In this document: in pieces, positions 14,867-27,448 of the stretch
Layout: each line of letters starts with the position of its first letter
How positions within the stretch are numbered: the first letter of the stretch is position 1
Assembly: GCF_030758935.1 (NCBI RefSeq)
Contig: NZ_CP132333.1
Coordinates: 2,418,992-2,482,991 of the forward strand
DNA from: Geothrix sp. PMB-07
Lineage (GTDB): Bacteria > Acidobacteriota > Holophagae > Holophagales > Holophagaceae
Length of the DNA: 64,000 nt
Direction: 5' to 3'
The notes under the pieces: generated by a model
Databases searched by the model: none
What the model saw: only the letters and a program-made list of their open reading frames with translations
Told to the model about the DNA's origin: nothing
Translations under genes and position numbers: made by a program

Positions 14867-16594
14867 TTAGGCGTAGACGCGCTGCAGGCCTGGGTCCTGG
14901 GTCAATTCCTCGATGAGGTCGCGGACGCTCACCAGCTCGCGCAGCTTGGCGCCGTTGCTGCCGGTGAAGAAGAGGCCGTTTTCCTGGTCGCCCTGCATGG
15001 CGTCGGCCAGGCGGTCGGCGATGCAGTAGCCCACGGCCATGGCACCCTTGCCGTGGCCACAGGGCGAGAGGCAGTTGCTCACGCAGCGGATCTGGGGCGC
15101 GGTGCCGGCCTCGATGCGGCGCTGCAGCGAGGTGCGCACGCCGCGGGCGGGCAGGCCCACGGGGGATTTCATCAGGCCGATGTCCTCGGCCTTGGCGCGG
15201 AGGATGACTTCCTTGAAGAGGGGCGAGGCGTCGCACTCGAAGGTGCCGATGAAGCGCGTACCCATCTGCACACCGTTGGCGCCCAGGGCCAGGAAGCGCT
15301 GGATGTCCGCGTGATCCCAGACGCCACCGGCCACCAGCACAGGGAAGTCGCCCCATTTGTCCCGCTCGGCGATGACTTCGGGAAGGATGTTCTCGAGGGT
15401 GTGGGCCGGATCGTCACAGCCTTCGTGGCTGAAGCCCTGGTGGCCGCCGCTCTCGGGGCCTTCCAGCACCACTGCATCGGGCAGACGATTGTACTTCCGC
15501 TGCCACTGTTTGCAGATGACCTGGAGGGCCCGGCCCGAGGACACGATGGGCACCAGGGCCACATCGGCATCGCCCACATAGCCCGGCAGCGCCAGGGGCA
15601 GGCCCGCGCCGGAGACGATCATCTGCGCGCCGCCCGCCACCGAGGCGCGCACAGCGGATTCGTAGCCTTCGATGGCACAGAGGATGTTGACACCCACGGC
15701 GCCGCGTCCCGCGGACCTCTCCCGGGCCGCACGGACGATCCATTCCAGGGCCTTGGGCGGATTCAGCCCGTCGGTGCCATCGGGGCGGCCCAGGCGCATC
15801 TTGGGATTGGCAGAGCCGTGGTAGCCCGTGCCGATGGCCGACACCAGGCCCACGCAGCCCTCGTGGGCCACGGCGCCCGCGAGGCCCTCCCAGGAAATGC
15901 CCACGCCCATGCCGCCCTGCTGGATGGGATAGGCCAGATCGAGGTTGCGGATGCGCATCCGAGGCAGGCTGCAGGCGCCCTTGCGCACCAGGGACTGGGC
16001 CATAGAGTCCAGGCCGGCCATGAGCCGCGAACGGAAGGCCGCCAAAGGGGACGAATCCAACAGCGAAGGCGTGCGCGGCTGCAGGCCGAAGGCGCCGTCA
16101 GCCATGGCCTGCTTGGCCTCGGCTTCGGTATCGGCCACGGCCATCACCGGCAGCCCCAGGGATCGGAGCGCGGACACCAGACCGGCCCGGGCCAGCAGGG
16201 CGGAAGCGCCACCGGCCTTGGCCTGGGCAGCTTCCTCGGGATTCTGCACCGCCACAATGCGGGGCATGTTCACGTGGCGAAGCATGGCCAGAGAGGGCGG
16301 CAATTCGGCGGTGTGCAGCAGGAAGGCCACACCCGCTTCGCGAGCCGCAGCCATGACCGCATCCGCGCTGTCTCTCAGGCCTCGTAGATCAAGGCCGATC
16401 TTGGCGCCATCCCGCATGGAGGCCTTGAGTTCCTCCAGCCGCGCCCGCAGCTTGTTGGCATCAGGGAACGCATCGGTGCGGGGCAGCGCCCAGCCCCCCG
16501 CACGCAGGAAGGCGGCCTGGAAATCGAGCGAACCCGGCGCCTGCCAACCCTGCATGGTTGGCGAGGTGGCAGTGTTAAGGAAGGGCTCGGCCAT
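14867..16594 (-). CDS. Nitronate monooxygenase / FMN-dependent enoyl-reductase-like flavoprotein with extra N-terminal domain
   Basis: 575 aa from the ATG at 16594 (GGAG six bases upstream); an earlier ATG at 16639 lacks a ribosome site. The C-terminal 370 residues are a NPD/FabK-type FMN barrel: PIQQGGMGVGIS, SGAGLPLALPGYV, VLEGPESGGHQG and FPVLVAGGVWDHADIQRFLALGANGVQMGTRF (first part). The first 200 residues are not usual for the family but contain barrel-like phrases (LPVMAVADTEAEAKQAMADGA), as if half a second barrel were fused. Substrate is unknown. It lies downstream of ilvC on the same strand, separated by a probable terminator. Confidence 0.82.
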   Translation of the reverse strand: MAEPFLNTATSPTMQGWQAPGSLDFQAAFLRAGGWALPRTDAFPDANKLRARLEELKASMRDGAKIGLDLRGLRDSADAVMAAAREAGVAFLLHTAELPPSLAMLRHVNMPRIVAVQNPEEAAQAKAGGASALLARAGLVSALRSLGLPVMAVADTEAEAKQAMADGAFGLQPRTPSLLDSSPLAAFRSRLMAGLDSMAQSLVRKGACSLPRMRIRNLDLAYPIQQGGMGVGISWEGLAGAVAHEGCVGLVSAIGTGYHGSANPKMRLGRPDGTDGLNPPKALEWIVRAARERSAGRGAVGVNILCAIEGYESAVRASVAGGAQMIVSGAGLPLALPGYVGDADVALVPIVSSGRALQVICKQWQRKYNRLPDAVVLEGPESGGHQGFSHEGCDDPAHTLENILPEVIAERDKWGDFPVLVAGGVWDHADIQRFLALGANGVQMGTRFIGTFECDASPLFKEVILRAKAEDIGLMKSPVGLPARGVRTSLQRRIEAGTAPQIRCVSNCLSPCGHGKGAMAVGYCIADRLADAMQGDQENGLFFTGSNGAKLRELVSVRDLIEELTQDPGLQRVYA

Positions 16595-16650
16595 TCGGGG
16601 CTCCGGAGTGTGGAGAGTTCGCGCCACACAGGACATCATTGTGGGGCCAA

Positions 16651-16708
16651 AAGGGCGTGACGGGGTTTAAGCATTTGACCCAGGGTCAAGACGCTCTCGC
16701 CCCGTCAC
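16651..16708 (-). terminator. Nested hairpin, probable terminator after ilvC
   Basis: Outer arms GTGACGGGG (16657-16665) and CCCCGTCAC (16700-16708) pair perfectly and enclose an inner palindrome TTGACCC-A-GGGTCAA (16675-16689). On the minus strand GCCCTTTTGG follows the outer stem. It lies 10 bases after the ilvC stop. The short T run makes it a moderate terminator, and the inner palindrome could instead be a protein-binding site. Confidence 0.6.
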
Positions 16709-16717
16709 GGATATTCC

Positions 16718-17734
16718 TCAGGCCTTGACGGCAGGGGCAGGCGATTCCACGGGATCAAGGAAGGGCATCATGCGGCGAAGTTTGCGGCCTACCACTTCCA
16801 GGGGATGGTCATAGTCTGCCGCCCGCTGGGCCTCGAACCACTGGCGGCCGGTCTTGTTCTCTTCGATCCACGCCGTGGCGTAGCGGCCGTCCTGGATCTC
16901 CTTGAGGATCTCCTTCATCTCGGCCTTGGTCTGGTCAGTCACCAGGCGGGGCCCGCCGGTGTAGTCGCCGTATTCGGCCGTGTCGCTGATGCTGTAGCGC
17001 ATGTAGCTGAGGCCGCCCCGCTGCATGAGGTCCACGATGAGCTTCAGCTCGTGGAGGCACTCAAAGTAGGCGATTTCCGGCTGGTAGCCCGCTTCCACCA
17101 AGGTTTCGAAGCCGGCCTTCACCAGGGCGCTGGCGCCCCCGCAGAGAACAGCCTTCTCACCGAAGAGGTCGGTTTCGGTTTCCTCTGTAAAGGTTGTCTC
17201 CAGAACGCCTGCCCGAGTGAGGCCTAGGGCGGCTGCATAGGAGAGCGCCACGGCCAGGGCCTGGCCGCTGGCGTCCTGGTGGATGGCCACCAGGGCGGGC
17301 GTGCCGCCGCCTTCCACGAAGACCTCGCGAACGCGGTGGCCGGGGCTCTTGGGGGCCACAAGGCTCACATCCACGCCCGCCGGGGGCTCGATGCAGCCGT
17401 AGCGGATGTTGAAGCCATGGGCGAACATCAGCGTCTTGCCGGGGGTGAGGTTCGGGGCGATGGACTCGGCGTAGAGGGCACCCTGCCCCGTGTCGGGCGT
17501 GAGCACCATGATGACGTCCGCCCAGGCCGCGGCCTCGGCGGGGCTGGTGACCGTGAGACCCTGGGCCTCGGCCTTGGCCCGGGAGGCCGAACCGGCGTGC
17601 AGGCCCACACGGACGTGGACGCCGCTGTCCTTGAGGTTGAGGGCGTGGGCGTGGCCCTGGGACCCGTAGCCGATGATGGCGACCTTCTTGGCGCGGATCA
17701 GGCCGAGGTCGGCTTCGTAGTGGATGGTGGCCAT
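16718..17734 (-). CDS. ilvC: Ketol-acid reductoisomerase (NADP+) IlvC
   Basis: 338 aa from the ATG at 17734, which has a strong AAGGAG site; the frame is open further upstream but without homology. It is a class I (short) KARI. The Rossmann loop is [18 protein letters not shown], and [16 protein letters not shown] and [13 protein letters not shown] carry the Mg-binding acidic residues. The enzyme converts acetolactate and acetohydroxybutyrate to dihydroxy acids, step two of valine/isoleucine synthesis. It is last in the ilvD-ilvB-ilvN-ilvC series and is separated from ilvN by a 171-base spacer with a large inverted repeat. Confidence 0.96.
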
Positions 17735-17784
17735 GGTGGCTCCTTGTTGAGGGGTTTCGGTGGTTGAGAGATTTGAAAAACGGA

Positions 17785-17866
17785 TCACCACCAAGACACG
17801 AAGACACCAAGAAAAGCCAAAACGGCTTCTTTCGCCGTTCTTGGTGACTTGGTGACTTGGTGGTGA
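17785..17866. repeat. Large imperfect palindrome built from CACCAAG repeats
   Basis: Two 29-base arms, 17785-17813 and 17838-17866, are complementary at 26 of 29 positions. Each arm consists of near-repeats of ACCAAG(T/A)C. The 24-base centre can form its own smaller hairpin (AACGGC against GCCGTT). The element fills the ilvN-ilvC spacer. On the minus strand a 31-codon frame (17785-17880) runs through it, but it simply mirrors the repeat. Similar CACCAAG palindromes are, from memory, scattered in many bacterial genomes; I could not check that here. Confidence 0.75.
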
Positions 17867-17905
17867 ATGTTCTTGTTCATGGAGGTGCCGCCTCTCGGTT
17901 TGGAC

Positions 17906-18466
17906 TTAGACAGACATGGCTTCGTGGCTGGTGCCTGTGCGCAGAGGTAGGGCCGGGCGGACGGGGGCCGCAGGGCGCGCGCCACGGGCCATGGCCACGG
18001 CGCCGGTGCGGCCCATCTCGAGGATCCCGTAGGGCCGCATGGCGTCCACCAGGGCGTCGATCTTGGCGAGGCTGCCGGTGCACTCGATGACCAGGCTGTC
18101 CTCGGCGATGTCGACCACCGCGGCCCGGAAGACCTGGGCCAGCTGCAGCACCTCGGAGCGGACCTCCAGGGCCGTCGACACGCGCAGCAGCACCAGGTCG
18201 CGCACCACCACGGGACCGTCCGCCAGGGGCTCCACCGCCAGCACGTTCACGAGCTTGCGGAGGTGTTCCACGGCCTGGCGGACCCGCGCGGCATCCGAGT
18301 CCACCACGATGGTCATGCGCGAAAGACCGGGGCGCTCCGTGGGGCCCACGGTGAGGGAGTGGATGTTGAAGCCGCGCCGCCGGATCAGCGAGGCCACCCG
18401 GGTGAGGACGCCAGGTTCGTCATCGGTGTAGACCACCAGGACTTGATGGGGATGGATCTGGGACAT
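17906..18466 (-). CDS. ilvN: Acetolactate synthase small (regulatory) subunit IlvN
   Basis: 186 aa from the ATG at 18466 with a near-perfect AAAGGAGG site. The N-terminal ACT domain shows LVVYTDDEPGVLTRVASLIRRRGFNIHSLTVGPTE (first half conserved), and a second ACT-like domain follows. The family binds valine and confers feedback inhibition on the catalytic subunit. The last 25 residues are an Ala/Pro/Arg-rich tail. The start lies 11 bases after ilvB. A longer frame continuing into ilvB is an overlap artefact. Confidence 0.95.
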   Translation of the reverse strand: MSQIHPHQVLVVYTDDEPGVLTRVASLIRRRGFNIHSLTVGPTERPGLSRMTIVVDSDAARVRQAVEHLRKLVNVLAVEPLADGPVVVRDLVLLRVSTALEVRSEVLQLAQVFRAAVVDIAEDSLVIECTGSLAKIDALVDAMRPYGILEMGRTGAVAMARGARPAAPVRPALPLRTGTSHEAMSV

Positions 18467-18477
18467 GCGGCCTCCTT

Positions 18478-20202
18478 TCAGTGGGGATCCGAGCCGGTTT
18501 CGGCCAGAGCGCTGGGCCGCCGGATCATCTCGTGGAGTGCCGCACCCGCCGGCACCATGGGATAGACGCTGTCCTCCTGCTCGACCTTGAACTCGATCAG
18601 GGCGGTGCCATCGACCGCGCGGGCCTGCGCGACGGCCGCGGCCAGCTCGCCCCGAGAGGCGACCCGCTGACCGTGGACGCCGAAGGCCTCCGCCAGCTTC
18701 ACGAAGTCCGGCGACAGGATGGGCGTGGCGGCGTAGCGGCCCTCGTAGAACATGGCCTGCCACTGGCGCACCATGCCCAGGTACCCATTGTTGATGATGG
18801 CGATGTTCACCTTCACGTGCTCCTGCACGGCGGTCATCAGCTCGGCGAAGGTCATCTGGAAACCGCCGTCGCCCGCTACGACCCAGACTTCGGCCTCGGG
18901 CCGGGCCACCTTGGCGCCGATGGCCGCGGGCAATGCAAAGCCCATGGTGCCCGCCCCGCCGCTGGTGACGAGGCTGCGCTCGCCGTCGTGCTTGTAGTAC
19001 TGGGCCTCCCACATCTGGTGCTGGCCCACGTCCGTCACCACGATGGCCTCGCCCTTGGTGAGGCGCCAGAGGTCGTGCATGACATGCGCTGCATAGAGGT
19101 GGCCGTCATCCGGCAGGTTCTTGATGTCCCGCACGGCGGAATCGCCGCGCCACTCGCGGATGGTGTCCAGCCAGCCCGACCGATCCGCCACGGGCAGCTG
19201 GGGTAGCAGGGCCCGCAGGACGTCACCCAAGTCGGCGGCGATGGCCACGTCCACTGGCACGTTCTTGTTCAGCTCGCTGGCGTCGATGTCGATGTGGATC
19301 TTTTTCGCATGGGGCGCGTATTCCTTGAGCTTGCCCGTCACCCGATCATCGAAGCGCATGCCGAAGGCCAGCAACAGGTCCGCCTCCTGGATGGCGCGGT
19401 TCACCCAGGCCTCGCCGTGCATGCCCATCATGCCGAGGCTGAGGGGGTGCGTGGCGGGCACGGCGCCCAGGCCCAGCAGGGTAAGCGCGAAGGGGATGTC
19501 GGCCCGCTCAGCCAGGGCGAGCACTTCGGCCCGGGCGCCCGAGAGCTGGATGCCATGGCCCGCGAGGATGATGGGCCGCTTCGCATTTCGGATGAGTTCG
19601 AGGGCCTCGGCCAGGGCCTCCTGATCCAGGGGCGCGGGCAGGTGCCTTAGGTGGCGCTGGGGCACCGCGCCCTCCCAGTCCAGCGCGGCTCGGGACTGCT
19701 GGGCATCCTTGGTGATGTCCACCAGCACGGGGCCGGGGCGGCCGCTGCGGGCCACGGCGAAGGCCTCGCGGATGGCGGGGACGATGTCCTCGGCGCGGGT
19801 CACCAAGTAGTTGTGCTTGGTGACGGGGATGGTGATGCCGGTGATGTCAACTTCCTGGAAGGCGTCGGTGCCGAGGAGCGCGGAACCCACCTGCCCCGTG
19901 ATGGCCACGAGCGGTGTGGAGTCCAGCATGGCGGTGGCGAGGCCCGTCACCAGGTTCGTGGCGCCGGGGCCGGAGGTCGCCACCACCACGCCCACCCGGC
20001 CGCTGGCGCGGGCGTAGCCATCGGCCATGTGGCAGGCACTCTGCTCGTGGCGCACGAGCACGTGACGGATGGGGTAGCTCACCATGGCGTCGTAGGCGGG
20101 CAGGATGGCGCCGCCGGGATAGCCGAAGACCGTGTCCACGCCTTCGCGCAGCAGGCTCTCCCAGATGAGCTGGGCGCCGGTGAATGTCGTTGCATCTGAC
20201 AT
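18478..20202 (-). CDS. ilvB: Acetolactate synthase large (catalytic) subunit IlvB
   Basis: 574 aa from the ATG at 20202 with GGGAGG upstream. ThDP-enzyme landmarks are [15 protein letters not shown], the catalytic glutamate in [35 protein letters not shown], and the C-terminal ThDP motif [15 protein letters not shown]...NNGYLGMV. It condenses pyruvate with pyruvate or 2-ketobutyrate, the committed step to valine, leucine and isoleucine. It lies between ilvD (11 bases upstream) and ilvN. Confidence 0.97.
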
Positions 20203-20213
20203 GGCGACCTCCC

Positions 20214-21926
20214 TCAGCCCGCGACCGTGATGGCGCCTTCGGAGGCGCTGGCCACGGTGGCGGCGTACTTGGCGAACACGCCCCGGCGGTAGCGCGGCGT
20301 CGGTGCCTTCCATTCGGCGCGGCGCTGGGCCAGCTCCTCGTCGGAGACCTTCAGATCGAGACGGCGGGTGGGGATGTCAAAGATGACGGTATCCCCCTCG
20401 CGCACCAGCGCGATGGGACCACCCACAGCGGCTTCCGGGGCCACATGGCCCGCCATCAACCCGCGCGTGGCACCGGAGAAGCGACCATCCGTGAGCAGGG
20501 CCACGGTCTCGCCCAGCCCGGCGCCCATGAGCGCCGCCGTGACGCCCAGCATCTCGCGCATGCCCGGGCCCCCGCGGGGCCCCTCGTAGCGGATCACCAG
20601 CACGTCGCCATGATCGATGCGACCTTCCTGCACGGCGGCGAAGGCCTCATCCTCGGTCTCAAAGACGCGCGCGGGGCCCGTGTGATGCAGGCGTTCGTGC
20701 CCCGCCACCTTGATGACGCAGCCCTCAGGTGCGAGGCTGCCCTTCAGGATCACGAGACCGCCGCTGGGCTTGATGGGGCTGGCGAAGGGGCGCACCACCT
20801 GCTGGCCCGGCGTCTCCTGGGCCGAGGCCAGCTCTTCGGCCACGGTGCGCCCCGTGACGGTGCGGGCGCTGCCATGAAGTTTGCCGCCCTCCAGCAGGCG
20901 CTGGGCCACCAGCCGGATGCCGCCCGCGGCATGCAGGTCCGGCGCCGTGAAGCGGCCCCCGGGCTTGAGGTCCGCCAGCAGGGGCGTGCGGGCGCTGACC
21001 TGATCGAAGTCGTCGATGGTCAGGGGCACATCCGCCTCGCGGGCCAGGGCCAGGTAGTGCAGCACGGCGTTGGTGGAGCCGCCCGAGGCGGCCACGGAGG
21101 CGATGGCGTTCTCGAAGGCCGCGCGGGTGAGGATGGCGCTGGGGCGGAGGTCGTTCCGGACCAGGTCCATGACCAGGCGACCGCAGGTCTCCGCCGCCTC
21201 ACCCTTGAGCGGATCCTCGGCCGGAATGCCGTTGAGGCCCATGGGGCTGAGGCCTAGGAGCTCGAGGCTGGCGGCCATGGTGTTGGCGGTGAACTGGCCG
21301 CCGCAGGCCCCCGCGCCGGGACAGGCGGCATCCTCGACCTTCTTCAGGCCCGCGTCATCCAGCTTGCCGGAGCTGTGGGCGCCGACGGCCTCGAAGACAT
21401 CCTGCACGGTGAGATCCTTGCCGTCGCATGCGCCGGGAGCTGTGGAGCCGCCGTAGAGGATGAGACCGGGGATGTCGAGACGGGCCAGGGCCATGGCCAC
21501 GCCGGGATTGGTCTTGTCGCAGCCCGACAGGCACACGAGGCCATCAAAGGCGTTGCCCCGGGCCACCAGCTCGATGGAATCGGCGATGACTTCGCGGCTC
21601 ACCAGGGAGGCCTTCATGCCCTCGGTACCCATGGTGATGCCGTCGCTGATCGAGACGGTGTTGAACTCCATGGGCGTGCCGCCCGCGGCGCGGACACCCG
21701 CCTTCACCCGCTCCGCCAGCTCGCGCAGGTGGTAGTTGCAAGGGCCGATTTCGATCCAGGTGTTCGCGATGCCGATGATGGGCTTGGCGAGATCCTCGTC
21801 CGTGAAGCCGATGGCCTTCAGCATGGCGCGGGCGGGGGCGCGATGGGCGCCCTGGGTGATCACGCGGCTGCGCCAGTTGAGCGGCCGGCTGAGGGGCTGA
21901 TCGTGGGGTTGTCCTGCGTCCGTCAT
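20214..21926 (-). CDS. ilvD: Dihydroxy-acid dehydratase IlvD
   Basis: 570 aa from the ATG at 21926 with AAGGAAG upstream. Fe-S cluster cysteines sit in [18 protein letters not shown] and [33 protein letters not shown] is the C-terminal signature. It dehydrates dihydroxy acids to 2-keto acids, the third step of the pathway. As first gene of the ilv operon it lies directly behind the attenuator at 21979-22009, so its expression, and that of the genes after it, is predicted to depend on leader-peptide translation. Confidence 0.96.
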
Positions 21927-21978
21927 GGTCTTCCTTATTGGGGAAGGCCGCCGACCTCGTGATGGCAGGACCGAATCG

Positions 21979-22009
21979 AAAAGGCCCCGCATCGAGGAGG
22001 TGCGGGGCC
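21979..22009 (-). terminator. ilv attenuator (terminator with alternative antiterminator)
   Basis: On the minus strand, GGCCCCGCA (22009-22001), a 9-base loop and TGCGGGGCC (21991-21983) form a perfect 9-bp stem followed by TTTTCGATT. The left arm and loop (22009-21997) can instead pair with GAGGTGGGGGCC (22048-22037) inside the leader peptide gene: 12 pairs with a single bulged G. This gives the mutually exclusive terminator/antiterminator pair of classical amino-acid attenuators. It lies 52 bases upstream of the ilvD start. Confidence 0.88.
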
Positions 22010-22030
22010 GGTTTCGGTGTCAGTTCCGAA

Positions 22031-22156
22031 CTAGGGGGCCCCCACCTCGCCGCTAATAATCAGCACGGCGGGAATGGTCACCAGGCTTACCACCAGGCGT
22101 ACAGACACGGGCGAAATCGCCGCGGCTGCCAGGTGGTTGGGGTGATGGGGGTTCAT
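22031..22156 (-). CDS. ilv operon leader peptide (attenuation peptide)
   Basis: A 41-codon frame, ATG at 22156 to TAG at 22033. In residues 14-38, 14 of 25 are Val, Leu or Ile (for example VRLVVSLVTIPAVLII), exactly the products of the downstream genes. Codons 37-40 form one strand of the antiterminator, so a ribosome stalled earlier in the Val/Leu/Ile stretch would leave that strand free. No Shine-Dalgarno is visible. The start lies only 8 bases beyond the predicted -10, so it may be translated from a leaderless mRNA. It matches no E. coli IlvL sequence and is identified by composition and position. Confidence 0.88.
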   Translation of the reverse strand: MNPHHPNHLAAAAISPVSVRLVVSLVTIPAVLIISGEVGAP

Positions 22157-22164
22157 AGCGCTCG

Positions 22165-22193
22165 AGTGTCCGTGGTTGCATGGGGGCTGTCAA
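22165..22193 (-). promoter_or_regulatory. Promoter of the ilv leader and operon
   Basis: A perfect -35 box TTGACA (22193-22188) is followed after exactly 17 bases by GACACT (22170-22165), which keeps the conserved A2 and T6 of the -10 consensus. Transcription would begin at about 22157-22159, at or next to the leader peptide ATG. It lies 38 bases after the leuB stop, so ilv has its own promoter. Confidence 0.75.
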
Positions 22194-22231
22194 GGCAGGA
22201 GTCGGATCGTCATTCCGAATCGCGTCCCAAC

Positions 22232-23311
22232 TCATGGTTGGGACACGGCAGCGCCGAGGCGCTGAAGGATGCAGGCACCCAGGCCGCGGGTTCCCTGGGG
22301 GTGGCGGGCGCCCTTGAGATCACCCGTGCCATGGCCCTCCTGAAGGGTCTGGTGGACGGCGGTTTCAATCTCCTGGGCCTCGCTGGAAAGGTTCAGCGCA
22401 TGGCGCAACAGCATGGCGGCCGAGAGGATGGTACCGATGGGATTGGCGCGATCCTGGCCCGCGATGTCGGGAGCGGAGCCGTGGATGGGTTCATAGACGC
22501 CCACGCTCCCTCCCAGACTCGCCGAAGGCAGCAGCCCCAGGGAGCCCGCCAGCACGGCGGCTTCGTCGCTCAGGATGTCGCCGAAGAGGTTCTCCGTGAG
22601 CACCACGTCGAATTCCCGGGGCTTCGTGATGAGCGCCATGGCGAAGCTGTCCACGTAGGCGTGCTGGACCTTCACCTCGGGATAGAGCGGCGCCATGTCA
22701 TCGACCACCTGCCGCCAGAGACGCGAGGTCTCCAGCACGTTGGCTTTGTCCACGGAGACCAGGTGGTTTCGGCGGCCCAGGGCCAGCTCGAAAGCCACCT
22801 TGGCCACCCGCTCGATCTCGGGGCGCGTGTAGGGCAGCGTGTTCACCGCAGTCTGGTCAGAGTAGGAACGCGGTTCGCCGAAGTAGAGTCCACCGGAGAG
22901 TTCACGCACGAACATCACGTCCGTGCCGCGCACCACCTCAGGCTTCAGGGGCGAAGCATCCTCCAGGGCCGGATGCACGGTCACCGGACGCAGGTTCGCG
23001 TAGAGCCCCAGGGCTTTGCGCAGCCTCAAAAGGCCCGATTCCGGGCGCTGGTGGCGGGGATGTTTGTCCCAGGCGGGACCACCCACGGCGCCCAACAACA
23101 CGGCATCGCTGGCGCGGCACAGCTCCAGGGTGGCCTCGGGCAGCGGATCACCCGTGGCATCCACCGCGGCGCCACCGATGAGAGCTTCCTGGAAGTGGAA
23201 GCGGTGACCAAAGCGCTCGGCCACGGCCTTCAAGCAGGCCACGGCTTCGGCCGTAACCTCAGGGCCCACGCCGTCGCCCGGCAGAACGCAGATGCGCGCT
23301 TCCACGATCAC
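22232..23311 (-). CDS. leuB: 3-isopropylmalate dehydrogenase LeuB
   Basis: 359 aa, GTG start. Family landmarks: [17 protein letters not shown] at the N-terminus, [13 protein letters not shown], the substrate-binding [13 protein letters not shown], and [29 protein letters not shown] (split across the active site). It oxidatively decarboxylates 3-isopropylmalate in leucine synthesis. The GTG overlaps the stop of a 37-codon frame (GTGTGA), implying translational coupling to it. Downstream lies the ilv leader. Length is normal. Confidence 0.96.
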
Positions 23312-23421
23312 ACCCCCCAGCCGTACTGATCCGGGTTCGCATCGGTTCCCTCGACGGGGAGGATGGCGGGTTTCGGCGCAGCCTTGGCGGGTTCCGCCGT
23401 CTCGATTTTAGGTTCGGGCAT
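23308..23421 (-). CDS. 37-aa Ala/Pro-rich ORF between leuA and leuB
   Basis: ATG at 23421 with an excellent GGAGG site six bases upstream; TGA at 23310-23308 overlaps the leuB GTG. The peptide is acidic/Pro/Ala-rich in its first half and ends [11 protein letters not shown]. It is not rich in leucine, so it is not an attenuation leader of the usual kind. It may be a small protein or a coupling ORF that delivers ribosomes to leuB, which has no good site of its own. No homologue is known to me. Confidence 0.6.
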
Positions 23422-23433
23422 TCTGTCCTCCAT

Positions 23434-24984
23434 TTACGACCTCGCCTCAGCAGGCACGGGAGTGGCGAGGGCCCGGCGAGAGAAAAGCACCTTGTTGGTG
23501 GCGTTGAGGTAGGCGCGCACGCTGGCCTCCACGATGTCCGTGCTGGCGCCTTTGCCACCGTGGGCCACGCCATCGAATTCCACCTGGATGAACACCTCGC
23601 CCACGGCATCGGCGCCGCCAGTGATGGCGTGGATGCGGAAATCGAGCAGGCGGCCCTTCAGGCCCGTGAGCTTGTCCACCGCGGCGAACACGGCGTTCAC
23701 GGGGCCATCCCCCATGGCGGTTTCCGTGTGCTCGCCTTCCTCGCTGGCCAGGGTGACCAGGGCCGTGGCCCACATGGAGGTGCCGGCGGTGGCTTGAAGG
23801 GCTCGCAGCTTAAACGTCTCGGGGATGTGCGTGAGGCCATCGCGGACGATGGCCAACAGATCCTCGTCGAAGATCTCCTTCTTCTGGTCGCTGAGCTTGG
23901 TGAAGAGCTTGTACGCCTTGTCCAGCTCGGCCCGCTCCAGCGGGTAGCCCAGTTCCTCGAACCGCTTGGCCAGGGCGTGGCGGCCCGAATGCTTGCCCAG
24001 CACCAGGTGCGTCTGTCGGACGCCCACGGATTCCGGCGTCATGATCTCGTAGGTGGAGCGATGGCTCAGCATGCCGTGCTGGTGGATGCCACTTTCATGG
24101 GCGAAAGCGTTGCGCCCCACGATGGCCTTGTTGGGCTGAACTTCAATGCCCGTGATGTTGGCCAGGGTCTGACTGGTGCGGTAGATGGCTTCCTGGTTCA
24201 CGCCGGTGGTGTAGGGCATGGCGTCGCGGCGCACGGAGAGCGCCATCACCACCTCTTCGAGCGCAGCATTGCCCGCACGCTCGCCAATGCCGTTCATGGT
24301 GCATTCCACCTGCCGCGCCCCGGCGGACACCGCCGCCAGGGAATTGGCCACTGCCAATCCCAGGTCGTTGTGGCAGTGCACGCTGATGGTGACGTCCTCG
24401 ATGCCCGGCACCCGCTCCCGCAGGTAGGTGATGAGCTTCGAGTACTCGTCGGGAACGGTGTAGCCCACGGTGTCCGGCACGTTCAACACGGTGGCGCCAG
24501 CCTCGATGGCGACGGTGAACACCTGCACCAGGTAGTCCCAATCGCTGCGGGTGGCATCCTCCGCAGAGAACTCCACCTCCTGGCAGTGCGACTTGGCCCG
24601 GCTGACGCCCTCACGGACCATCTGGAGGGCCTCTTCCCGGGTCTTCTGAAGCTTGTAGGCGAGATGGATGTCGGAGGTCGCCAGGAAGGTGTGGATGCGG
24701 GGCCGGGCCGCCTCGCGGAGGGCCTCCCAGGCGCGGTCGATGTCCTTGGGGATGGTCCGGCACAGGGCCGCAATGATGGGCTTGCGGCACTCCCGGGCGA
24801 TGGCCTGCACCGCCGCGAAGTCATCGTCCGAGGCCACGGGGAAGCCAGCTTCGATCACATCGACACCCAGAGCTTCCAGCTGCAGGGCCATCTGCAGCTT
24901 CTCGTCCAGGTTCATGCTGCAGCCGGGTGACTGCTCGCCGTCGCGAAGCGTGGTGTCGAAGATGGTGATCCGCTGGTTGCCCAT
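23434..24984 (-). CDS. leuA: 2-isopropylmalate synthase LeuA
   Basis: 516 aa from the ATG at 24984, after which the conserved [16 protein letters not shown] begins at once. [18 protein letters not shown] carries the metal-binding histidines, and [16 protein letters not shown] follows. The C-terminal 130 residues are the LeuA allosteric domain that normally binds leucine ([20 protein letters not shown]). It condenses acetyl-CoA with 2-ketoisovalerate, the first committed leucine step. It is divergent from the LysR gene, the usual arrangement for a target of that regulator. AAGGAG lies about 11 bases upstream. Confidence 0.96.
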
Positions 24985-25040
24985 GGTTCGGGGTACTCCT
25001 TCGTCCGGGCTGGCCGGAGGGATCACCTGAAGATGGCGCC

Positions 25041-25090
25041 AATCGAGTCATAAATACATTTAATTTTTTTTATCATTCCATAAGATATGC
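25041..25090. promoter_or_regulatory. AT-rich divergent control region between leuA and lysR
   Basis: This 50-base stretch is far more AT-rich than its surroundings, including a run of eight or more T. It contains TTAT-N6-ATAA (25070-25083), a small dyad of the size bound by LysR-type regulators. It separates leuA (minus) from the LysR gene (plus) and is the natural place for both promoters and the regulator's binding site. No leucine-rich leader ORF or terminator is present, so leuA is not attenuated the way ilvD appears to be. Confidence 0.55.
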
Positions 25091-25121
25091 TTCTAACCCT
25101 ACACTTCACCACGGAGCAGCC

Positions 25122-26042
25122 ATGGACCTGGGACAGCTGGAGACTTTCCTGGTGGTGGCGCGGGAGAAGAGCTTCTCGCGCGCCGCGGAACGCCTGTACC
25201 GCACCCAGCCAGCCATCAGCCTGGCCATCAAGCGCCTGGAGGACGAGCTGGGCGAGACGCTGCTGGATCGCACCACCAAGGGCGGCACGCTGACCGACGC
25301 AGGCGCCACGCTGCTGCCCATGGCCCAGCGCATGCTCGACCTGCGCAAGCAGGTGCTCGATACCTTCGGTTCGCTGAAGGGCCTGCAGCAGGGCCGCCTC
25401 AACATCGGGGCCAACGAAAGCGTGTCGGAATTCCTGCTGCCCAGCGTCCTGCTGGCCTACCAGCAGGCCCACTCATCCATTCGCATTCAGGCCTACCGCC
25501 AAAGCTCCGAGCGCATCCCCACCGAGGTACTGGAGCGCCGTCTCGACATCGGCTTCGTCTCCTACGACCCCCTGCATCCTGAACTCCAAAGCGAAGTCAT
25601 CCTGCGCGACCACATGGTGCTGGTGGTGCCGCCGGACCACCGCTTGGCCCGCAAGAAGGAAGTGAGCCTGGAGGTTCTGGGCAAGGAAACCTTCGTGGCG
25701 CACAACGCCATCACGCCCACCCGCAACGCCATCATCGATCTCTTCGCCAAGTGCGACACGCCCCTGCGCATCACCATGGAACTGGGCTCTCTGGCCACCA
25801 TTCAGGACTTCGTGGCCCTGGGCGCCGGCCTCGCCATCCTGCCCCGCATGACCGTGCAAGGGGGCGTCCGCCAAGGCAAGTTGGTGGAGGTGGCCGTGAA
25901 GGAACTGCAGGTGGAAAAGCTCATCCGCATCGTCACCCGAAGGGAGGAGGCCATGTCCCACGCGGCCAAGGCCTTTCTCCAGCTCATCCGAACCACTGAT
26001 TTCACCCGCAGCGCCGCTCCCCCCAGGAGGAAGAAACCATGA
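25122..26042 (+). CDS. LysR-family transcriptional regulator, probable regulator of leu genes
   Basis: 306 aa. The N-terminal winged helix is typical ([13 protein letters not shown]-like start, [20 protein letters not shown]), followed by a periplasmic-binding-protein-like effector domain (about 90-295). It is divergent from leuA and overlaps leuC by 4 bases (ATGA), forming a lysR-leuC-leuD operon. By context it should control leucine genes in response to a pathway intermediate. The effector is not readable from sequence. Confidence 0.92.
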
Positions 26043-27448
26043 GTCCCCGCACCCTCTACGACAAGATCTGGGATGAACACCTCGTCGCCACGCGCACCGA
26101 TGGCACCAGCCTGCTCTACATCGACCGGCACCTGGTCCATGAGGTCACCAGCCCCCAGGCCTTCGAGGGCTTGCGGGAAGCGAAGCGTTCACTCCGCCGA
26201 CCCACGGCCATTCTCTCCGTGGCGGATCACAACGTGCCGACTCTCGACCGCGAGAAGGGCATCGCCGACGAGACCTGCCGCCTGCAGGTGGAGGCGCTGG
26301 AGAGCAACGTGAAGGCCTACGGCGTGCCCTACCTGCCCCTGCTGGATGAACGCCAAGGCATCGTCCACGTGGTGGGGCCCGAACAGGGCTTCACCCTGCC
26401 CGGCACAACCATCGTCTGCGGCGACAGCCACACCAGCACCCACGGCGCCTTCGGAGCCCTGGCCTTCGGCATCGGCACCAGCGAGGTGGAGCACGTCATG
26501 GCCACCCAGACCCTGCCCCAGCGCAAGTCGAAGAACCTGCGCGTGCGCTTCGAGGGAACCCTGCCTCCGGGCCTCGGCGCCAAGGATCTCGCCTTGGCCC
26601 TCATTGGCCGCATCGGAACCGCGGGCGGCACGGGCAGCGTCATCGAATTCACTGGCGATGCCGTACGCTCCCTCTCCATGGAGGGCCGCATGACCCTCTG
26701 CAACATGAGCATCGAAGCGGGCGCCCGGTCGGGCCTCATCGCCCCCGACGACACCACCTTCGCCTACCTGAAGGGTCGCCCACTCGCGCCCCAGGGTGAG
26801 CTGTGGGCGCAGGCCCTGGCCCACTGGCACACGCTGGTGTCGGATGCAGGCGCCCACTTCGATTCAGAAGTGACCATCGATGTCTCGAGCCTGGCCCCCC
26901 AAGTCACCTGGGGCACCAGTCCCCAATGGGTGACCGACATCAGTGGCCGCGTGCCCGACCCCGAAACCGCAGCGACAACCGAAGATCGGCAGGCCATCCA
27001 GCGGGCGCTGGAATACATGGATCTGAAACCCGGCACCCGGATCGCAGACATCCCCTTACAGGCCGTGTTCATCGGCTCCTGCACCAATGGGCGCATCGAG
27101 GATCTCCGCGAGGCCGCCGCCGTGGCCAGGGGCCGCAAGGTGGCCTCCGGCATCCGCGCACTGGTGGTGCCTGGCTCAGGCTTGGTCAAGCGGCAGGCCG
27201 AGGCCGAGGGGCTGGACCGCATCTTCCTCGAGGCGGGCTTCGAGTGGCGCCAGCCCGGCTGCAGCATGTGCCTGGGCATGAACGATGACCGGCTGGCCGA
27301 GGGCGTGCGCTGCGCCAGCACCAGCAACCGCAATTTCGAGGGCCGCCAGGGACGGGGTAGTCGCACCCACCTCGTGAGCCCCGGCATGGCCGCCGCCGCC
27401 GCGGTGACCGGCCACTTCACCGATGTCCGCAGCCTGATGGGAGTTTGA
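26039..27448 (+). CDS. leuC: 3-isopropylmalate dehydratase large subunit LeuC
   Basis: 469 aa, normal length. [4Fe-4S] ligands are the cysteine of [13 protein letters not shown] and the pair in GCSMCLGMN. Other aconitase-fold signatures are [23 protein letters not shown] (first part) and [16 protein letters not shown]. With LeuD it isomerises 2- to 3-isopropylmalate. Its start overlaps the lysR stop by 4 bases and leuD begins one base after its stop. Confidence 0.97.

Follow-up and report, generated by a model that had tools for sequence, protein, structure and literature searches.

The ilvDBNC operon of Geothrix sp. PMB-07 appears to be controlled by a classical ribosome-mediated transcription attenuator with a leaderless start, a reading to which a probability of about 0.88 is assigned. 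The element lies at positions 21979-22193 of the 64,000-nucleotide stretch of DNA analysed here (the window), on the minus strand of a 4.24-Mb single-contig genome, between leuB and the ilv genes in the order leuA-leuB-[leader]-ilvD-ilvB-ilvN-ilvC. These genes were identified by passing NCBIfam cut-offs and are all encoded on the minus strand: leuB (22232-23311; TIGR00169.1), the upstream neighbour; ilvD (20214-21926; NF002068.0 and TIGR00110.1), the first gene of the operon; ilvB (18478-20211; TIGR00118.1); the gene for the acetolactate synthase small subunit, ilvN/ilvH (17906-18439; NF008864.0); and ilvC (16718-17734; NF004017.0). An 8-bp inverted repeat without a T tract (GTCCCAAC..GTTGGGAC, 22224-22244) surrounds the leuB stop codon, and a long palindrome of CACCAAG repeats occupies positions 17786-17865 between ilvN and ilvC. 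Two other genera have similar palindromes close to the far end of ilvD (loci L023 and L026), which perhaps belong to a dispersed repeat. No attenuator was seen in the stretch 24850-25200 at leuA.

The promoter postulated in the original prediction, TTGACA-17-GACACT, is present: the -35 hexamer TTGACA (22193-22188) begins 37 bases upstream of the leader ATG, and the -10 hexamer GACACT (22170-22165), separated from it by a 17-base spacer, ends 8 bases before the ATG. GACACT shares 3 of its 6 bases with TATAAT, which makes it a weak -10, and a generic promoter scan of positions 16500-26200 listed no promoter. The leader peptide ORF (22031-22156, minus strand) runs from the ATG at 22156-22154 to the TAG at 22033-22031 and comprises 41 codons plus the stop, encoding MNPHHPNHLAAAAISPVSVRLVVSLVTIPAVLIISGEVGAP. 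A recount confirmed that 14 of its residues 14-38 are Val, Leu, or Ile; at the local background of 0.223, the binomial chance of 14 out of 25 is 2.6e-4, which alone is not decisive.

Both helices proposed earlier, a 12-bp antiterminator and a 9-bp terminator with a T tract before ilvD, fold at this place. The antiterminator arms GAGGTGGGGGCC (segment 2; 22037-22048) and GGCCCCGCACCTC (segment 3; 21997-22009), identified from the fold, the folds of relatives, and a swap test, form 12 pairs with one bulged G (-29.8 kcal/mol, z-score of -3.66, with none of 200 shuffled sequences equally stable) and enclose an inner hairpin, TTCGG...CCGAA (22013-22030). The intrinsic terminator (3:4) is a hairpin with the arms GGCCCCGCA/TGCGGGGCC (21983-22009; -20.4 kcal/mol, z-score of -4.30, 0/200 shuffles equally stable), followed by the T tract TTTT (21979-21982), which at only 4 T is short and a weak point. 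The antiterminator overlaps the 5' arm of the terminator, so the two helices are mutually exclusive. A predicted protector (1:2) hairpin (22041-22072), in which 22072-22061 pairs with 22052-22041, would mask part of the antiterminator 5' arm; it is predicted in many copies, with a z-score of -0.78 for the window copy and a mean of -1.66 over 19 copies.

Read by the trp/ilv attenuation paradigm, from which the dynamic steps are taken, the observed anatomy suggests the following course of events. RNA polymerase would start at or within about 2 bases of the leader ATG, and a ribosome would load onto the 5' end of the mRNA without a Shine-Dalgarno (SD) sequence. With charged Val, Leu, and Ile tRNAs plentiful, the ribosome would reach the stop codon and cover segment 2, and the 3:4 terminator would stop transcription. 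Under shortage of a branched-chain amino acid, the ribosome would stall among codons 14-34, keeping the protector 1:2 helix open, so that segment 2 could pair with segment 3 and the polymerase could read into ilvD. In an untranslated leader, 1:2 would form, resulting in termination by default.

The distribution of this element was followed in 77 genomes of the family Holophagaceae through ilvD and ilvB matches, and some 300-450 bases before ilvD or ilvB were read in 52 of them, the remaining 25 having no match or only distant ones; 51 of these stretches were informative, one (G062) being cut by a contig end. Of the 51 informative genomes, 40, representing 6 genera, have an attenuator immediately upstream of ilvD or ilvB, and this conservation across genera makes it more than a chance arrangement. 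In the other 11 (G031, G038, G042, G044, G045, and six of genus g9), no attenuator was seen by eye in the stretch read; one may lie further upstream in their operons. In G065, for example, another coding frame runs up to ilvB. In six genomes of the next family, no attenuator was seen before ilvB, and a frame that by eye resembles the end of ilvC runs up to that gene. The g9 loci L024, L153, L154, and L155, with no attenuator in the stretch, carry CCAATAG(A/G)TCTATT-like palindromes upstream of ilvD or ilvB that might serve as an operator for a protein.

The 47 attenuator cassettes fall into three types. Leaders without leuB coupling (type A) are the only kind in 11 genomes of the genera g1 (the genus of the window), g3, g5, g6, and g10, and leaders that follow leuB (type B) are the only kind in 14. 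Seven genomes (L014-L019 and L159) carry tandem attenuators, a leuB-linked type-B copy and then, 285-302 bases later, a type-A copy with its own promoter. In one g4 genome (L013), the leader follows leuB and has no recognised promoter; it was counted with type A in the helix, promoter, protector, and SD counts, giving 19 cassettes set as A, 21 as B, and 7 as C. Type C (L020, L139, L141, L142, L143, L145, and L146; 7 genomes) has no separate leader: the leuB frame runs to the antiterminator, which its stop codon abuts, and Val, Leu, and Ile make up 28 of the last 70 leuB codons of the seven genomes taken together. The end of leuB may itself act as the sensor in these genomes, the least certain part of the scheme. 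The antiterminator 5' arm starts at the stop codon in types B and C and within the last codons in most type-A copies. Loss of the leader ORF with the terminator kept, the outcome that was to speak against the original prediction, was not seen with a cassette finder restricted to terminators accompanied by an ORF with 5 or more Val/Leu/Ile in 25 codons, the stretches otherwise being read by eye; the 7 genomes without a leader have the leuB frame instead. In L117, L118, L122, L139, and L141, ilvD is, by eye, apparently missing between the attenuator and ilvB, and a short ORF resembling the start of ilvD remains before ilvB.

The terminator folds in all 47 cassettes, which were picked by a terminator pattern. 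The antiterminator of the expected regions is part of the minimum-energy fold in most cassettes, not all (it is absent in L007, for example); there is one mismatch in the helix in L122, and the antiterminator z-scores are unremarkable in most type-B copies. A MAFFT alignment of type-A leaders across genera was set aside because of a misaligned terminator flank. In place of pair counts, cognate arms were compared with arms permuted between genomes, using representatives that partly share a genus and are thus not fully independent. This comparison bears out the expectation that the helices be kept in related genomes: for the antiterminator, the cognate mean was -22.2 kcal/mol vs -19.8 kcal/mol for permuted arms in 9 representatives (P=0.0027), with P=0.0003 in 14 representatives of all types, and for the terminator the respective values were P=0.0003 and 0.0001. 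The cognate arm outperformed every other partner in only 3 of the 9 and 3 of the 14 antiterminator rows, respectively.

In 8 representatives, Val, Leu, and Ile account for 90 of 200 leader codons vs the background of 0.223 (P of 1e-12, inflated by the choice of stops with high Val/Leu/Ile content). ATT, and in other genera also GTA, are slow codons enriched in the ilv leaders. In the same 8 representatives, ATT makes up 15 of 21 Ile codons vs 62 of 594 in the background, and GTA 14 of 48 Val codons vs 31 of 974, the background being 35 large ORFs of the window and thus a single genome. By type, the fractions are 28/29 for ATT and 5/61 for GTA (a slight enrichment, P of 0.055) in type A of g1; 14/21 and 16/52 in the other type-A genera plus g4; 16/55 and 6/78 (P of 0.05 for GTA) in type B; and 5/11 and 0/25 in type C, with no enrichment of GTA in the latter. 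In the longest frames of six loci from other genera, GTA stands at 0/53, 3/45, 3/48, 0/40, 1/44, and 1/9, and ATT at 0/32, 7/26, 1/19, 1/17, 0/17, and 2/6. Substitution counts by codon position were flat, indicating no conservation of the leader peptide as such; selection may act on decoding speed or on RNA structure.

The leader mRNA is likely to be leaderless or nearly so. Transcription usually starts some 35 bases downstream of the first base of TTGACA, and, because TTGACA is spaced 37 bases from the ATG, the mRNA would have 0-2 untranslated bases. TTGAC lies exactly 37 bases before the ATG in all 10 type-A copies of g1 and at 34-35 bases in 4 of the 8 copies from other genera (35 in L025, L026, and L148; 34 in L023), the chance of finding it at 33-38 bases being 0.5% per sequence; it is absent at the expected place in L149, L150, L151, L152, and L013. 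The spacing of the promoter is thereby consistent with such a start in g1 and in two further genera. Among the 19 leaders set as type A, the gap between the best -10 and the ATG is 6-9 bases in 16 and 6-8 bases in 14 (11% in the shuffled control), the promoter score exceeds the shuffled 95th percentile in 15, and an SD-like motif (AGGA, GGAG, or GAGG) is found upstream in 1. Together with a spacing of 36-37 bases in all 30 trp leaders (see below), the TTGAC position and the rarity of SD-like motifs support the earlier description of the leader as probably leaderless. According to the accessible part of a survey (Zheng 2011, PMC3160421), leaderless genes average 13.3% in three acidobacterial genomes.

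The best-placed alternative, although unlikely, retains the attenuator and differs in the origin of its mRNA: transcription would also, or mainly, come from upstream, by read-through from leuA-leuB or from another promoter, for instance with reinitiation after leuB. Such an arrangement would fit the end of leuB only 75 bases before the leader ATG, the 14 relatives with only a leuB-linked leader, and the 7 with both kinds. In the 21 leuB-linked leaders, TTGAC never occurs 33-38 bases ahead of the ATG, and an SD-like motif occurs in only 6, so presumably transcripts and ribosomes reach them from leuB. Against an upstream origin stand the TTGAC positions in g1 and in half of the copies from other genera, and the inverted repeat at the leuB stop, which might end upstream transcripts. 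A definition of type B as an SD-led class was dropped because only 6 of 21 members have the motif; the SD duplex energies of types A and B overlap, with no separation.

It is very improbable that the element is a constitutive terminator or insulator preceded by a chance hydrophobic ORF. Long open frames are common in GC-rich DNA and the chance of the observed Val/Leu/Ile content is just 2.6e-4, but 6 genera keep the arrangement upstream of their ilv genes, together with the codon bias and the alternative helices, and similarly built Trp and Phe leaders precede the trpE-like and pheA genes of the same genome. Slightly less probable still is nascent-chain arrest, in which a peptide ending in IISGEVGAP would itself stall the ribosome: I(I/M)SGEVG is common to type-A leaders of g1 and g6, but synonymous positions there, judged by eye, hardly vary either, which is what RNA pairing would demand, and g3, g4, g5, and g10 keep the terminator and antiterminator and not the peptide. 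RNAs that sense metabolites or tRNAs precede ilv genes in other bacteria. The accessible text of PMC10272879 mentions a ppGpp riboswitch, but a riboswitch, T-box, ppGpp element, or protein-bound leader is the least probable reading here, since no Rfam family reached its gathering threshold in the window (with 0 matches for the ilv, leu, thr, and trp leader families), the leader alone gave only subthreshold matches (Thr_leader at 18.5 bits vs 55, and unrelated families), and 18 loci of relatives yielded two tRNAs only.

Thus, the preferred reading is ribosome-mediated attenuation, as originally predicted: all its elements were found, and the helices and leader are kept in relatives. A caution comes from Streptomyces coelicolor, in whose ilvB leader, as far as the available excerpt of the report goes (PMC1262725), mutation of candidate codons had no effect and control was not attenuator-like, a result that counts against inferring attenuation from anatomy. 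This precedent, the inclusion of the leaderless start, which by itself is held to be likely but somewhat less so, and the lack of a clean SD-led contrast in type B lowered the probability from 0.92 to 0.88.

Leaders of the same design precede two other biosynthetic genes of the same genome. The leader MLLSFPVPCQGLSSEAWWWRMGSDGSLCEA, with three consecutive Trp codons, precedes a trpE-like gene (G000:C1, upstream of 2369315; L162 and L172) and is accompanied by the antiterminator GGGCTCGGA/TCCGAGCCC and a terminator with a T tail. It was found in all 30 loci compared, the distance from TTGACA to the ATG being 37 bases in 27 of them and 36 bases in 3, and is probably leaderless, judging from this spacing. 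The best model for the downstream gene is TIGR00564 (394 bits, below the cut-off of 518), and its assignment to trpE rather than pabB is inferred in part from the leader itself. The leader MLTSRFYFAFSFRTSGARVGGV precedes pheA (NF008865, above cut-off; G000:C1, upstream of 430007; L171 and L202) in 29 of 30 loci, the exception being L211; a -35-like element lies about 41-42 bases before the ATG in the copies measured, which would perhaps leave a 5' UTR of about 5 bases. The trp and phe loci are the best 30 of the 70 and of the 62 genomes with matches, respectively, all of the window's genus. At hisG, another coding frame lies closely upstream, and no leader was seen in the approximately 500 bases read.

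Outside Holophagaceae, 12 of 42 acidobacterial ilvD loci, selected from 80 listed matches, match a single pattern for a different hairpin (GGCCATCATCC...GGATGATGGCC), which is also present in L059, where the pattern missed it; leaders such as MFQDQFRYLVVVVRSVGVIITPAASG end at the antiterminator of this hairpin. A second kind of ilvD attenuator-like element, different from that of Holophagaceae and with the leader stop in or beside a GG(A/G)TGATG motif, was observed in other Acidobacteriota (L046, L049, L052, L059, L069, L075, L098, L101, L102, and L104); in L052, L098, and L101, the likely -10 is, by eye, 14-26 bases upstream of the ATG. Further candidates, in which a Val/Leu/Ile-rich ORF and then a terminator lie ahead of ilvD, were seen in Verrucomicrobia (L054, L061, L062, L084, L088, L094, and L106) and Chloroflexi (L047 and L078).

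A broader and more tentative reading, held at somewhat below even odds, is that Holophagaceae use attenuation as a general control of ilv, trp, and phe genes on leaderless or near-leaderless sensor mRNAs with an exchangeable sensor ORF, which for ilv could be a dedicated leaderless leader, a leuB-fed one, a tandem of both, or the C-terminal codons of leuB. Leaderless and leuB-linked leaders, duplicated ones, and genomes in which the end of leuB stands in the leader's place form a natural series that allows a direct comparison of what translation of the sensor needs. If the proposed starts are true, ATG-initial mRNAs serve the coupling of ribosome and polymerase beyond Actinobacteria and Alphaproteobacteria.

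The enterobacterial ilvGMEDA, ilvBN, and trp attenuators resemble the Geothrix element in having three alternative helices, regulatory codons near segment 1, and a terminator before the first gene; however, their leaders have an SD sequence and a 5' UTR, whereas the Geothrix leader appears leaderless. The rph-pyrE attenuator of Escherichia coli takes its leader ORF from the end of an upstream structural gene, a role that leuB may have in type C, but that system senses UTP by polymerase pausing rather than an amino acid. In Sinorhizobium meliloti, a member of Alphaproteobacteria, the trpL leader RNA, which senses Trp, has the ATG of its ORF at the very 5' end (PMC7298713, available excerpt). 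Attenuation has been proposed for the ilv-associated uORFs of the ilvB-OMG, ilvB-II, and ilvB RNA motifs (PMC10272879, accessible text); the Geothrix-type element itself matches no Rfam family. The literature searched yielded no description of ilv, trp, or phe attenuation in Acidobacteriota, in agreement with the initial statement that none was known from such organisms; an earlier prediction in Lopatovskaya 2010 or Vitreschak 2004 is possible. What may be new here is the phylum (within that literature), the joint presence of leaderless ilv and trp sensors, and the exchange of leader ORFs. Leaderless ilv attenuation as such is already established in Corynebacterium glutamicum, where, according to the accessible portion of PMC11857589, the ilvBNC transcript begins a single base away from the ATG of the leader MTIIRLVVVTARRLP, and changes of the valine codons or the start codon alter expression. 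That attenuator differs in phylum, in having ilvB as the first gene, and in its leader of 15 codons vs 41, and the two leader sequences, judged unaligned, look unrelated. With a branched-chain leader peptide before ilv genes and a terminator/antiterminator pair in both, the leaderless ilvBNC attenuator of C. glutamicum would nevertheless be the known system closest in behaviour to that of Geothrix.
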